DNA from: Labrys sp. KNU-23
GTDB lineage: Bacteria; Pseudomonadota; Alphaproteobacteria; Rhizobiales; Labraceae
Assembly: GCF_008330945.1 (NCBI RefSeq)
Contig: NZ_CP043488.1
Coordinates: 1,364,001-1,428,000 of the forward strand
Length of the DNA: 64,000 nucleotides
Direction of reading: 5' to 3'
A program made the translations under genes and the position numbers. The notes under the pieces are model-generated. The model was not told where the DNA came from. It did no database searches and worked only from the letters and a program-made list of their open reading frames with translations. Shown here in pieces: positions 46,289-51,234 of the stretch (its first letter is position 1; every line of letters starts with the position of its first letter).

Positions 46289-46415
46289 CTGCGGACTGTG
46301 ACGAGGCAGCACCGCCTTTTATTAATGGAGGCTGCGTGTTCGGGGGCACGGTTCTTTCCGCTCCCTCCCGGCACTCACAACCAAAAAGTGTGATTTCAAT
46401 AAAATTCAACCCATG

Positions 46416-46451
46416 TTGACACTCCCCTGATTTCGCGTTACATTATGTAAC
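46416..46451 (+). promoter_or_regulatory. Sigma-70-type promoter with overlapping TetR operator
   Basis: TTGACA (46416-46421) and TACATT (46439-46444) stand 17 bp apart, a near-consensus promoter. GTTACATTATGTAAC (46437-46451), a perfect 7-bp inverted repeat around one base, covers the -10 element. AAGGA follows 8 nt before the TetR start codon. The arrangement predicts direct autorepression by the TetR protein encoded next. Confidence 0.8.
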
Positions 46452-46471
46452 ATAAAATCAAGGACAACGCC

Positions 46472-47068
46472 ATGTCGCCGCGAGCCTATCGCCAATCGGC
46501 GCGCGCCCACGCAGTTCAGGATACCGAGCAGCAGATCATCGACGCCTTGATCGCGCTCCTCGAAGAGCGCTGGTTCGACGAGATCACTCTCGACGACATC
46601 GCCACCACGGCCGGCACAACCCGCCAAACCGTGATACGGCGTTTCGGCAGCAAGACTGGCGTACTCAGCGCCATGGCGGCCCAGATGGATGTCTCGATCC
46701 GAGCCCAGCGTTGGAGCACGCCCGCAGAAAGCGTAGCGGACATCGTCACGCTTCTGATGGACGATTACGAACGCACCGGCGACATCCTCGTACGGACGCT
46801 CGGGCAGGAAGCACGCATTCCCGAGTTCGCTGCCGTGCTCGATCGCGGACGTAGAGGTCATCGCGAGTGGATCGAGGACATGTTCAAGGCCTGGCTCGAC
46901 AAGCTCGACGACCGGGCCCGCGAGGATCGGCTCGCGCAGTTGCTGGCCCAGACCGATGTTTGGATCTGGCATTTGCTGCGCCGGGCGCAAGGACAGTCGG
47001 CGGCGAATACACACCGGCTCATGACGCAGGCGATCGAGCGCCTGCTGCACGAGGACAGGACGAACTGA
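46472..47068 (+). CDS. TetR-family transcriptional regulator
   Basis: 198 residues. N-terminal helix-turn-helix: QIIDALIALLEERWFDEITLDDIATTAGTTRQTVIRRFGSKTGVLSAM. The C-terminal ligand domain is not recognisably specialised. It lies behind a promoter whose -10 is covered by a palindrome, so it is most likely autoregulated, and heads a two-gene unit with a UGT-type glycosyltransferase 30 bp downstream. An antimicrobial or other aglycone recognised by the regulator could be the acceptor of that transferase. Confidence 0.93.
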   Translation: MSPRAYRQSARAHAVQDTEQQIIDALIALLEERWFDEITLDDIATTAGTTRQTVIRRFGSKTGVLSAMAAQMDVSIRAQRWSTPAESVADIVTLLMDDYERTGDILVRTLGQEARIPEFAAVLDRGRRGHREWIEDMFKAWLDKLDDRAREDRLAQLLAQTDVWIWHLLRRAQGQSAANTHRLMTQAIERLLHEDRTN

Positions 47069-47098
47069 TCCGCTCTCCATCGAGAAAGGACCAATGCG

Positions 47099-48418
47099 AT
47101 GGTGAAGACGACAGATGCGTGGCCGCATCTGCGCATCCTGGCGGCCAGCTGGGAAGGCGGCGGCAATGTGCCGCCAACGCTCGCGGCCGTGCGCGCCCTC
47201 GCCAGCCGGGGCCACGACGTCCGCCTGATCGCCGATGACACGATGAGAGCGGAGGCGATCGAGGCGGGAGCTCGATTCCTGCCATGGAAGCGCGCGCCGA
47301 ACCGTCCGGGTCGCTCTTTCGAAAGCTGCTTCATACGGGATTGGGAAACCGCCGACGCCCTGGCCGGCTTCCAAAGAGGGTGCGAGCGGATCTTCGTCGG
47401 ACCCGCGCAATCCTATGCCGAGGATATTCTCGAGGCACTGGCAGCGGAGCCATGCGATATGCTTCTCGGCTCGGATCTGCTGTTCGGCAGCATGCTCGCG
47501 GGCGAAATTGCGAAGGTTCCGACCGCCCTGCTCGCAAGCAACATCTCGCTCTGGCCCCTGCCCGGCCATCCGCCCTTCGGTCCGGGCTTTCAGCCCGCCC
47601 GGTCGGCGGCGGACAGAACGCGCGACGCCGAGGTTTCGGCCATGGTCGAGCAGATATGGGACGGCTTCCTGCCTGGCCTCAACGCCGCCCGGGCTTATTT
47701 CGGCGCCGCACCGCTGGCCCATGTCCACGAACAGGCCTTAAGCGCCGGTCGTCATCTCCTTGCCACCAGCGCCGGCTTCGATTTTCCCGCCCTGAGCCTG
47801 CCGGACCATGTGCGCTATGTCGGGCCGCTTCTGGAGCCGCCGAGCTGGGCCCATGGGCGCTGGGCAAGCCAGCCGGCGCGCGAGATGCGGCCCCTCGTGC
47901 TCGTGGCGTTCAGCACCACCAATCAGGGGCAGGCCGATGTGCTCCAGCGCGTGATATCCGGTTTGGCCGGGGAACCGGTCGAGGTGGTCGTCACTCTCGG
48001 CAAAGCCCTGGAGGGTCTTCGCCTGCAATCGCCGGCGAATGTCACAATTCTTGCCAATGCAGCCCATGACGACATCCTGGCCAAAGCCCACGCCGTCGTC
48101 ACCCATGGCGGGCACGGCACGATCATGCGATCGCTGCACCATGGCGTCCCCCTCGTCATTCTTCCGATGGGACGCGATCAGAACGACAATGCCGCGCGTG
48201 TGGATTATCACGGTGCGGGCCTGCGCCTCGATCCTTCGGTACCCCCCGAAGTGCTCGCCGAAGCCGTACGGCACGTCCTTTCCGAGCCGAGCTTTGCCGA
48301 ACGGGCGTTGGCACTTGGGCGTGCTATCGCCGAGGAAGGCCCGGGACCTGCGCGGCTCGTGGCAGAAATCGAGGACTTCGCACTGAGATCTTCCCAAAGA
48401 GCCCTGTCCGCTGCCTGA
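47099..48418 (+). CDS. UGT/MGT-type glycosyltransferase (GT1, GT-B fold)
   Basis: 439 residues. N-terminal acceptor domain begins RILAASWEGGGNVPPTLAAVRALASRGHDVRLIADD. The C-terminal donor domain has VEVVVTLGKALEGL, NVTILANAAHDDILAKAHAVVTHGGHGTIMRSLHHGVPLVILPMGRDQNDNAARV, matching the GT1 donor-binding signature (HGG.GT...L..G.P....P...DQ..NA). Transfers a nucleotide-activated sugar to a small hydrophobic acceptor; such enzymes can inactivate antibiotics or modify sterols and flavonoids. GAAAGGACC precedes the ATG. Cotranscribed with the TetR gene. Acceptor unknown. Confidence 0.9.
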   Translation: MVKTTDAWPHLRILAASWEGGGNVPPTLAAVRALASRGHDVRLIADDTMRAEAIEAGARFLPWKRAPNRPGRSFESCFIRDWETADALAGFQRGCERIFVGPAQSYAEDILEALAAEPCDMLLGSDLLFGSMLAGEIAKVPTALLASNISLWPLPGHPPFGPGFQPARSAADRTRDAEVSAMVEQIWDGFLPGLNAARAYFGAAPLAHVHEQALSAGRHLLATSAGFDFPALSLPDHVRYVGPLLEPPSWAHGRWASQPAREMRPLVLVAFSTTNQGQADVLQRVISGLAGEPVEVVVTLGKALEGLRLQSPANVTILANAAHDDILAKAHAVVTHGGHGTIMRSLHHGVPLVILPMGRDQNDNAARVDYHGAGLRLDPSVPPEVLAEAVRHVLSEPSFAERALALGRAIAEEGPGPARLVAEIEDFALRSSQRALSAA

Positions 48419-48572
48419 TTGGCATCCGCTGATCGCGGCAGGACACCGACCGACACCACGTCAAACCCCTCTCCTGCCAACGTCGTTGCCTCCGCATCGG
48501 CGAACGGCGGAGCCTTATGCCAATTCGTCCCGCAGGCAAGCACCCGAACCACCATCTAACGGAACCAGAACC

Positions 48573-49217
48573 ATGAAGCGCCTTCTGACAGCATTCTTCA
48601 CTGCCCTCCTCTCCGCCGAGACCGGAAGCGCACTTGGCGCCGGAGAGCTTCCTGCCGCCTCCTCCCTGCCCAGGAATGTCGTCCAGGTCTCACCCGTTAT
48701 CACGCTCATGCTCGCACTTGCCGTCGCGCTCGGCGCATTCCCTTTTGAGGCGCACGCGCAGTCATCCATCGAGCGGGGCAAATATCTGGTGACCGTCGCA
48801 GGCTGCTCGGATTGCCACACGCCCGGAACTTTTCTTGGCCATCCAGATAGGGGCCGATATCTGGGGGGTTCGGATGTCGGCTTTGCTATCCCGGGTCTCG
48901 GCGTTTTCGCTGGCCCGAACCTGACACCCGACAAGGAGACGGGTATCGGCAATTGGAGCATTCAGCAGATCGTGACTGCGATCACGACCGGCAAGCGCCC
49001 CGACGGGCGCGGGCTTGCGCCAGTCATGCCCTTTGAAGCCTTCTCGCACCTTAGCAGTGCGGATGCCGAAGCCATTGCGGCCTATTTGAAGAGCATCAAG
49101 CCGGTCGCCAATAAGATTGCAGGGCCCTTTGGTCCCACCGAGAAGCCCAGCATCTTCGTGTTCGCCGTCATGCCCGCAGAGATCTACTCCTCGTTGCCGA
49201 AGCCTCCGACCAAATGA
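48573..49217 (+). CDS. Class I c-type cytochrome
   Basis: 214 residues. Single heme motif C-S-D-C-H in VTVAGCSDCHTPGTFLG; likely axial Met in LAPVMPFEAFSHLSSADAEAIAAYLKSI, the common C-terminal cytochrome c pattern. Acts in the periplasm as an electron carrier or as a subunit of a dehydrogenase. The N-terminus is odd: a weak hydrophobic stretch (LLTAFFTALLSAETG) is followed about 25 residues later by a proper signal peptide (SPVITLMLALAVALGAFPFEAHAQ). Either the true start is an internal codon or the first 45 residues were added by rearrangement. No partner dehydrogenase adjacent. Confidence 0.85.
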   Translation: MKRLLTAFFTALLSAETGSALGAGELPAASSLPRNVVQVSPVITLMLALAVALGAFPFEAHAQSSIERGKYLVTVAGCSDCHTPGTFLGHPDRGRYLGGSDVGFAIPGLGVFAGPNLTPDKETGIGNWSIQQIVTAITTGKRPDGRGLAPVMPFEAFSHLSSADAEAIAAYLKSIKPVANKIAGPFGPTEKPSIFVFAVMPAEIYSSLPKPPTK

Positions 49218-49266
49218 GGCAAGTTCGTGCCGAAACCTCTGAAAGATCGAGTTGGGGCAGGTACGA

Positions 49267-49431
49267 GACAAAATCACAATCATCACGAGTGGAGCGTCGG
49301 GTATCGGAGCGGCGTGCGCGGAAACGCTGGCGAGCGAGGGCACGAGGGCCATCGTCACCGATGTTGACGCGTCTCACGGCAAGGAGGCGGTCGCCGGCAT
49401 CGAAGCAGAGCGTATGGCGATCAAGCCCTGA
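49267..49431 (+). pseudogene. N-terminal fragment of a short-chain dehydrogenase
   Basis: 55 codons ending in TGA: DKITIITSGASGIGAACAET then LASEGTRAIVTDVDASHGKE. This is the cofactor-binding start of an SDR (TGASGIG-type motif; here the first Gly is replaced by Ser in TSGASGIG) up to the second strand. The catalytic Ser-Tyr-Lys half is missing and no start codon is evident. It lies between the cytochrome and the N-acetyltransferase genes. Confidence 0.8.
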
Positions 49432-49522
49432 TGAAGCTTTGACCACGCGGCGATCCGGCAGCGAGCCTCTGAAATACCGCATCCGAAACCTCAACAACGG
49501 TTCATCGAAAGGAAACCGAAGG

Positions 49523-50368
49523 ATGAAACACGTCCCTGTAAGCGAAAATGGAATGGCTCTGACGCCTGCCCAACTGGACGCCTATCTCGCCAGGATTGGG
49601 ATGGCGCGGCCGGCTTCTCTCGACGTCGACAGCCTGTCGAGGCTTCACCGCGCCCATCTCATGGCCTTCACCTGGGAGGCGCTTGATGCGTTCATGGGAT
49701 GGCCGTCCTCGATCGCCCCGGCCGCCGCCTTCGCCAAAATGGTAGAGAGCAAGCGCGGTGGCTGGTGCTACGAGATGAACGGTCTGTTCGGCGCGGCGCT
49801 CGCCGCGCTCGGTTTCCGCGTGACCCGACTGTGCGGCGGCGTCAATCGCGCAATATTGGGCGATGTCGCCATCGGCAACCACCTCACGCTGCGTGTCGAC
49901 CTCGACCGGCCATACCTGGCCGAAGTCGGATTGGCGGACGGCATCATCGAACCCGTATCGCTTGCAGTCGGGCCGATCCGCCAGCGCGACTTCGAGTTTT
50001 CGATCTTGCCGACGGACGACGGCTGGCTGCGCTTCAACAACCATGCCAATGGCCTGGCGCACAGTTTCGATTTCCGGCCCGATCACAGCGACGAGGCCGC
50101 CATAGAAGCCACGCTTGGCTGGCTGACGCAGGATCCCGGCTCGCCGTTCACAAACGCCCTGGCAATCCTGCGGCATACCGAGGATGGCTATGTCGCCCTG
50201 AAGAACGACTGCCTGAGCAGCGTGACGGCAGGCAGCGTCAGCGAACGGCGCATCATGAGCGCCGACCATCTTGCGGACACGCTCCATACGATTTTCGATC
50301 TCGATATTCCCAGGTCCGGACAAGTCTGGGACAGAATCCAGGCGGTCAGCCACGAAGCAGCCAGTTGA
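49523..50368 (+). CDS. Arylamine N-acetyltransferase with altered catalytic acid
   Basis: 281 residues, normal NAT length. Nucleophile C82 in KRGGWCYEMNGLF and catalytic His H120 in GNHLTLRVDL. The third residue of the triad, usually Asp in a DVGFG segment, is Glu134 here (YLAEVGLADG, codon GAA). The N-terminal WEALDAFMGWPSSI corresponds to the usual FENLD...G.P...L. NATs move acetyl from acetyl-CoA to arylamines or hydrazines by a ping-pong mechanism. The start was set at the ATG after GGAAACCGAAGG. A broken copy of its first third lies at about 50923-51095. Confidence 0.88.
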   Translation: MKHVPVSENGMALTPAQLDAYLARIGMARPASLDVDSLSRLHRAHLMAFTWEALDAFMGWPSSIAPAAAFAKMVESKRGGWCYEMNGLFGAALAALGFRVTRLCGGVNRAILGDVAIGNHLTLRVDLDRPYLAEVGLADGIIEPVSLAVGPIRQRDFEFSILPTDDGWLRFNNHANGLAHSFDFRPDHSDEAAIEATLGWLTQDPGSPFTNALAILRHTEDGYVALKNDCLSSVTAGSVSERRIMSADHLADTLHTIFDLDIPRSGQVWDRIQAVSHEAAS

Positions 50369-50467
50369 ACAGGTCCCCTTGCCACCCCACCGGAGCGATT
50401 GGGTGCTCGGCGGTCTGGCCGCTGCAAAATCGTAGCGACACGCTCCGAAACTTGCTCGACCTTGCGA

Positions 50468-50757
50468 TCACGGGAATTGCGCCGACAGTTTGCTGAATGC
50501 CGCCCCTGGCTGGCGCTTCCGTGGCTTGAGCGCTCTGCCGGTTCTCGCTTCCAGTTGCTCGATCACGGTTTGGCTCCGAGAGGACGGCCGGTGGTTTCCG
50601 CCAGGCGCAAGGTATCGACCGTCGCCTCGTCCTCCTCGGTGCAGGGAAGGCCGGCGAAATTGCCAAAGCAGTCGCGGACGGGGTTGAGGCCGACATAACG
50701 CACCGCATGCGGGAGATGGTTTTCGTCCGGAACCACCGAACGAGCTATGCGTGGCAT
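50468..50757 (-). pseudogene. Decayed REP-associated tyrosine transposase, copy A
   Basis: Minus strand begins MPRIARSVVP (the start of RAYT/IS200-like transposases), jumps directly to HAVRYVGLNPVR (a later conserved block), then ends ETTGRPLGAKP, after which a one-base deletion shifts the frame; the shifted frame continues W-IEQLEARTGRALKPRKR. The middle with the His-U-His catalytic region is missing. So this copy carries both an internal deletion and a frameshift. Confidence 0.82.
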
Positions 50758-50922
50758 CCGTGCAATCTACGCGGCAGGCCTATGCTAGTAAATTGTTACC
50801 GCCATTTCCACAGGATACCCGGGCTGCAGGGGGGGCCGCATCACGACGTGCATCCATATTTCGTACGATGTGCCGGACACATGGCAATTGCACCCTGAGC
50901 CCGCCTTGTTGCGCGGCGCCTC

Positions 50923-51095
50923 ACTGAAGGGAAACCGGAGGATGGCGCATGCATTTGTCGAGCAGAAGCGCAATGACCCTGCCCTTCGTCCAGTTGGACG
51001 CCTATCCCACAAGGGCCTCGCTCGGCCGGCCGGTTGCTCTCGACGTCGGCAGCCTGCCGAAGCTTCACCACGCCCATCTCATGGCCTTCCACCCC
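50923..51095 (+). pseudogene. Partial, frameshifted copy of the arylamine N-acetyltransferase gene start
   Basis: From the ribosome-binding region (GGGAAACCGGAGGATG, matching GGAAACCGAAGGATG before the intact gene) through VQLDAYPTRASLGRPVALDV and SLPKLHHAHLMAF, matching AQLDAYLARIGMARPASLDV and SLSRLHRAHLMAF of the gene at 49523. The opening ATG is in another frame than the matching part, and similarity stops after about 45 codons. No catalytic Cys. Confidence 0.8.
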
Positions 51096-51234
51096 ATCGC
51101 AAAACCCTCTACTTTCCTAGCATGGTACCGTGACGACGTGGGACGCCCCCGGTTTCGGAGAGCCGTCTGACCGCTTCGGCTTCCGCGCCGTTCCCGGATA
51201 TCATTCAACGACACGATCCATGAGGAGACGGGCG

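Follow-up and report, generated by a model that had tools for sequence, protein, structure and literature searches.

The window, meaning the whole 64,000-nucleotide stretch of the Labrys sp. KNU-23 genome analysed here, holds an arylamine N-acetyltransferase (NAT) gene. Upstream of it, in the same reading direction, lie genes for a TetR-family regulator, a macrolide-family-like glycosyltransferase (GT) and a cytochrome c-like protein, with a promoter-like site and a palindrome at their head; a broken remnant of a second NAT gene follows downstream (Table 1). NATs are textbook Cys-His-Asp enzymes. In the enzyme encoded here, the third residue of the triad is Glu134.

Table 1. Genes and sequence features at the NAT locus, in window coordinates
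Feature	Position	Strand	Basis
Sigma-70-like promoter (TTGACA-17-TACATT) preceding the operon	46416..46444	+	One promoter-like site in 46300-51200
Palindromic operator, presumed TetR site	46425..46463	.	19-nt arms (46425-46443, 46445-46463), 79% complementary; overlaps the -10 hexamer
TetR-family regulator	46472..47068	+	PF00440 E=4.2e-9; same place in relatives
Macrolide-family-like (GT1) glycosyltransferase	47099..48418	+	PF06722 E=1.3e-17; TIGR01426 E=4.6e-37, below cut-off; best solved match oleandomycin glycosyltransferase
Cytochrome c-like gene between GT and NAT	48567..49217	+	PF00034 E=7.9e-6
Arylamine N-acetyltransferase, PF00797, 281 aa, Cys82-His120-Glu134	49523..50368	+	ORF without stop, Pfam, alignments, NAT-fold model
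Codon of nucleophile Cys82 (RGGWC)	49766..49768	+	Codon read
Codon of catalytic His120 (GNH)	49880..49882	+	Codon read
Glu134 codon GAA at the catalytic Asp position	49922..49924	+	Codon read, multiple alignment
Broken remnant of a second NAT gene, comprising its leader and first ~50 codons	50926..51090	+	Similarity searches

The triad of the Labrys NAT

Pfam model PF00797 matches residues 34-263 of the protein with E=3.7e-37 and 128.8 bits against a curated cut-off of 22.8; the narrower NCBIfam model NF011621 stays below its cut-off, at 74 of 493 bits. An AlphaFold model built on 54 aligned rows adopts a confident NAT fold (mean pLDDT 92.6) and aligns with solved NATs over nearly its full length, the best match being 4b55 (Z 31.6, rmsd 2.1, 258 residues aligned). 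By sequence, the closest solved structure is Mesorhizobium loti NAT1 (4nv7/2bsz; E=1e-30, Z 31.2), which also has Cys and His in place; unlike the Labrys enzyme, it carries Asp in the triad, a PFENID motif (2bsz) and GFGG. The amide synthases RifF and GdmF share the fold as well (GdmF Z 24.0) but act in ansamycin synthesis, and a scan of nine genes of the window turned up no polyketide synthase. A search of the genome with the PF00797 profile gave one match, this NAT, and the remnant was found separately with this NAT protein as query. By its profile match, its full-length predicted fold and its Cys and His residues, the Labrys protein is a member of the PF00797 family and is predicted to acylate arylamines in an acyl-CoA-dependent manner.

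The earlier note on this DNA had described a full-length gene with Cys82 and His120 in place and with Glu134, encoded by GAA, at the position of the catalytic Asp. These points are borne out. The frame is open throughout, residues 82, 120 and 134 read C, H and E, with the Cys in its RGGxC motif, and E134 falls on the Asp of the DVGFG motif both in HMMER alignments to solved NATs and in the multiple alignment. The third triad Asp is absent, leaving a Cys-His-Glu set, and the outcome that the note had named as refuting its reading, an alignment that puts an Asp of this protein in the catalytic position instead of E134, was looked for without being found.

Distribution of Glu and Asp among relatives

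Relatives were collected by scanning 84,980 species, one genome each, with short peptide patterns that excluded position 134. The scan gave 292 relatives, of which the best 80 were kept, so that the set covers the nearer relatives only. Together with further genome-search rows and the window's NAT, these make up an alignment of 101 rows, all with Cys and His, in which the third triad residue is Glu in 53 and Asp in 48. Fifty of the Glu rows (37 GAG, 13 GAA) fall in a clade of 54 rows comprising the window and L024-L076 (53 of the best 80 of the 292 relatives), and the other four rows of this clade have Asp. The remaining three Glu rows are L008, which is identical to L076, and L078 and L079, which lie just outside the clade. 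Most Glu rows with a named family are from Rhizobiaceae (19); Burkholderiaceae account for five and Neisseriaceae and Comamonadaceae for one each, and others are from further alphaproteobacterial families. Of the named relatives, Labrys sp. WJW (Xanthobacteraceae) is nearest, at 89% identity. As this strain and 48 further clade rows share the residue, a sequencing or alignment error behind Glu134 was rejected.

A phylum-wide sample gave NAT matches in 66 of 398 genomes, the window's genome included. With the window's own match set aside, 69 of 70 matches are Cys-His-Asp, one of these 69 being a partial gene in genome G541. The odd match, L175 in the same genome, is likewise a partial gene, and its aligned 'E' sits in an unrelated upstream reading frame. 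The two partial matches of G541 (L167 and L175) lie ~29 kb apart on one contig and apparently belong to a rearranged or broken gene. Set against this sample, the 50 Glu rows among 54 exceed what chance would give: Glu is rare overall yet prevails in a clade drawn from alpha- and betaproteobacteria. The swap appears to be old and is probably functional, with activity predicted for the enzymes that carry it.

On a tree of 65 rows, built with the triad column left out, the Asp/Glu labels take five changes on the best tree, at least four of which are forced by starred branches. Three Asp rows of the clade (L031, L063 and L069) form a nested group with support 88/97, and the fourth, L035, has the Glu row L029 as its sister (97/89). 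Both residues also occur within Sphingosinicella, with Asp in L077 and L080 and Glu in L078. Each swap between Asp and Glu takes one nucleotide change. Constraining 51 Glu rows (L078 excluded) to a single clade was weakly rejected (p-AU 0.0425); because this value is weak, the first tree was already known when the group was chosen and the bootstrap is unsettled, the number of switches is approximate, and a single origin of Glu is only weakly resolved from several. All four Asp rows of the clade share the TetR-GT-NAT layout described below, and since Asp recurs in this same operon setting, Glu and Asp look interchangeable in the clade.

Near the active site, the clade has its own changes: FTWEALD in place of PFENLD, and VG[LV]A, with Leu or Val for Phe at position 137 and Ala at 138. 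The earlier note had listed the altered residues after Glu alongside the replacement of Asp. The Leu/Val at 137 is real, but it is clade-wide and present in the Asp members too, and so lies outside the Asp/Glu switch. Within the cassette branch, five positions in the range 15-274, the triad position included, split Asp from Glu rows under the filter used. Of the 15 Glu rows of this branch, 12 have Ala at position 138; the four Asp rows have Ser or Gly there.

Glu in a NAT triad is known from Bacillus cereus NAT3, (BACCR/BACCE)NAT3, which section 6 of PMC11213898 presents as an active enzyme deviating by Glu in its triad, and whose PDB entry (4dmo) names a unique Cys-His-Glu triad in its title. 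The Labrys protein resembles 4dmo in fold (Z 26.6, rmsd 2.7, 244 residues aligned) and in the Glu (LIEVGFG in 4dmo). It differs in sequence (22% identity), and 4dmo retains the Asn of PFENL and the Phe-Gly pair following Glu, both of which are changed in the Labrys clade. The near relatives of 4dmo, namely 3lnb and a Priestia NAT (the bridge to 4dmo, taken from a plasmid search at E up to 1), have Asp, as do the deeper relatives of the Labrys clade. Judged from these Asp relatives on each side, the Glu of the clade most likely arose separately from that of B. cereus NAT3. Position 53, the PFENL Asn, holds Ala, Gly or Val in all 53 Glu rows that cover it (the 54th Glu row being the partial gene L175) and Asn in 85 of 117 Asp rows, although the rows are not independent. 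That loss of this Asn is required for Glu was ruled out by 4dmo, which has Glu with the Asn kept, so the loss is at most one route to Glu.

The TetR-GT-NAT cassette and its presumed operator

A GT gene lies upstream of the NAT in 18 of the 19 rows of one sub-branch of the clade (17 loci and the window), with 81-89% identity to the window's GT, and a TetR gene precedes the GT wherever the contig extends far enough. The exception is Comamonas L051, which is without the GT. None of the 35 other clade loci has a GT beside the NAT, and neither has any of 68 phylum-sample neighbourhoods searched over 4 kb each side (tblastn, E up to 1e-6, two queries; contig ends shorten three of the neighbourhoods, and both partial matches of G541 are excluded). 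Because those 35 clade rows are without the cassette, the GT partner is not essential to the NAT. Among 27 further loci, one has the GT: L095 of Caulobacterales, in the order NAT-TetR-GT. A Priestia megaterium plasmid (L178:4990-7526) carries a MarR - NAT - macrolide-family GT trio, accompanied by SDR and MFS genes on the far side of MarR. Together with L095, this trio suggests that the pairing of NAT and GT arose more than once.

The gaps between TetR and GT run from -4 to 55 nt at 15 loci, and those between GT and NAT from -37 to 230 nt at 14 of these, outside Labrys. The cytochrome c-like gene separates GT and NAT in both Labrys genomes and in none of the other cassettes; the gap in L024 is 912 nt. 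Because this gene intervenes, co-transcription of GT and NAT in Labrys is presumptive. Cytochrome c-like genes recur near clade NATs, upstream in R. etli p42e (L135; 59% identical) and in L071 (56%). Across 16 cassettes, pairwise distances correlate between NAT and GT (r 0.47; 10 of 2000 permutations as high) and between GT and TetR (0.49; 3 of 2000), and modestly between NAT and TetR (r 0.33; 53 of 2000), so the three genes seem mostly to have travelled together.

Outside the cassette branch, the NAT has other neighbours. Among the 40 largest clusters of neighbours listed from the 6 kb to each side, these include a PNPOx/GAF region in the opposite reading direction at 22 loci; a cupin gene lies upstream of the NAT at 16 loci, a YceI gene lies downstream at 11, and a LysR gene is present at 8. 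The first three names follow the Rhizobium etli p42e annotation and LysR was read from the translation. These differences across the clade point to the NAT as a movable unit with varied partners.

The promoter-like site ahead of the TetR gene is the only one in 46300-51200, where shuffles lead to an expectation of 0.8, and terminator-like sites in the same interval are at chance level. When the upstream regions of 16 cassettes are aligned, 11 have TTGACA or TTGACG at the promoter's place. The operator pattern has a single site in the 7.5 Mb genome and none in shuffles of the window. With 0-3 mismatches, it is present in all 16 cassettes with upstream DNA (window included), a count that expresses conservation and not independent prediction, because the pattern was drawn from those same sequences. 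Among the other 63 loci it is matched only in L103, with 4 mismatches, and L095 has none. The palindrome fits an autoregulated local repressor, with TetR as the protein presumed to bind it. At L069:6040-6226, it adjoins an additional, truncated copy of TetR that lies ~1.9 kb ahead of the full gene, before which no palindrome was found, a placement hinting at insertion or duplication in that cassette.

The cassette GT resembles the antibiotic-inactivating macrolide glycosyltransferases (Mgt, OleI, Rgt) in matching their models weakly, but it scores far below the curated cut-offs (TIGR01426 128 of 260 bits, Mgt 55 of 700) and therefore does not class as macrolide-inactivating by either the NCBIfam MGT or the Mgt cut-off. 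In GT1 enzymes, a His acts as catalytic base. The presumed catalytic His of the G-H-x-N-P motif (GEGHINP in the Priestia homologue) is replaced by Asn (GGGNVPP) in all 17 cassette copies holding the region, and by Ser in the L095 GT. Given the Asn for His, the activity of the GT itself is uncertain and its chemistry may be altered.

Downstream of the NAT, the remnant matches the L029 cassette NAT at 77% over 164 nt (126 bits) and the resident NAT at 81% over 95 nt (91.5 bits). By score, cassette NATs from other genera match it better than the resident gene does, which suggests that it was left behind by a replacement or by a further cassette copy, not by a tandem duplication. It is followed by an O-methyltransferase gene (PF00891; 51130-52248); a 72% identical O-methyltransferase gene lies near the cassette of Bradyrhizobium tropiciagri L031, on the opposite strand. 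A dS of 0.31 separates the Labrys NAT from that of Neisseriaceae L025, the same as separates the two Labrys genes from each other; this points to horizontal spread, unless the L025 record is contaminated.

Proposed function and rival readings

Taking together the triad residues, the predicted fold, the deep conservation of Glu and its interchange with Asp, the operon layout, the conserved palindrome and the patchy spread, we consider it probable that the locus encodes an active Cys-His-Glu NAT within a self-regulated, inducible and horizontally spread GT and NAT conjugation (detoxification) operon; activity, TetR binding, induction, co-transcription, substrate and purpose are what we infer from these observations. 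Acetyl transfer by the NAT would follow the ping-pong course usual for such enzymes: Glu134, standing in for Asp, would orient His120 and thereby activate Cys82. As the last gene of the operon, it would stand under a TetR repressor bound to the palindrome over the promoter, from which an inducing compound would free the operator. By glycosylation and N-acetylation, GT and NAT would then render harmless an aromatic compound that bears amine and hydroxyl groups, both the shared substrate and the detoxifying purpose being suppositions. Counting against an active Glu enzyme, Kubiak in 2013 reportedly found human NAT2 to be strongly impaired by the Asp-to-Glu change.

The earlier note had raised the possibility that the gene is on the way to inactivation; Glu would then be an early step of decay. 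The near-universality of Asp in the phylum sample and the broken NAT remnant directly downstream could be taken in that sense. The decay reading is nevertheless rejected as very improbable: Glu is common to 50 clade rows from alpha- and betaproteobacteria, Cys82 and His120 are invariant, Asp and Glu swap within the same operon, and the NAT is the only PF00797 match of its genome. None of the 54 clade genes has an internal stop. The Labrys NAT differs from that of Labrys sp. WJW by dN 0.054 and dS 0.308 (dN/dS 0.17), and for clade pairs whose dS lies between 0.05 and 1.2 (1197 of 1431; pairs not independent) the ratio has a median of 0.21, which indicates purifying selection. By these measures, the NAT is not decaying. 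More credible, though still unlikely, is that the Glu enzymes have changed chemistry, such as acyl-CoA hydrolysis or another acyl group or acceptor, Glu being one element of that shift. The flanking changes at FTWEALD and at 137 and 138 accompany Glu, position 138 tends to follow the triad acid in the cassette branch, and the GT partner suggests a special substrate. The Asp members, however, keep the same operon and are separated from the Glu rows at only the five positions noted above, so Glu alone defines no different function, and the Glu-bearing B. cereus NAT3 is described in PMC11213898 as active in tests with arylamines. A shifted substrate, the note's other suggestion, is plausible from the GT partner and the changes flanking the active site; Glu by itself is no evidence for it.

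A further reading, which we hold to be rather less likely than changed chemistry, is that the cassette makes a small natural product and does not destroy a foreign one. Macrolide-family glycosyltransferases serve synthesis and resistance alike. NATs are also noted in biosynthetic clusters in PMC11213898. However, no scaffold-building gene recurs with the cassette in the 40 largest of the listed clusters of genes within 6 kb to each side. The clusters common to cassette loci fall on TetR, GT, NAT or overlapping frames, with most neighbours unannotated.

No description of the clade or the cassette was found among the matches listed from open-licence literature on Glu and triad NATs, Rhizobium NATs, NAT-GT-TetR operons and Labrys. 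Beyond the conjugation operon itself, we suggest tentatively, as a possibility short of even odds, that TetR-GT-NAT may be a previously undescribed proteobacterial mobile 'phase II' conjugation module with its own operator, directed against a single class of amino-aromatic compounds, either natural products or pollutants, and that its NAT lineage exchanged Asp for Glu as catalytic acid in the distant past and continues to alternate between them. The known Glu version, in the parts of the literature examined, is one bacillus enzyme; the present lineage is large, apparently healthy and seems to have arisen separately. Its regulator, operator and GT suggest a substrate and an inducer, both open to direct search. 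If the proposal is true, the NAT lineage would provide a natural test bed for Asp/Glu exchange in a cysteine triad. Because the Asp members share their operon with the Glu lineage, matched natural pairs are at hand for testing how far the triad tolerates either acid.
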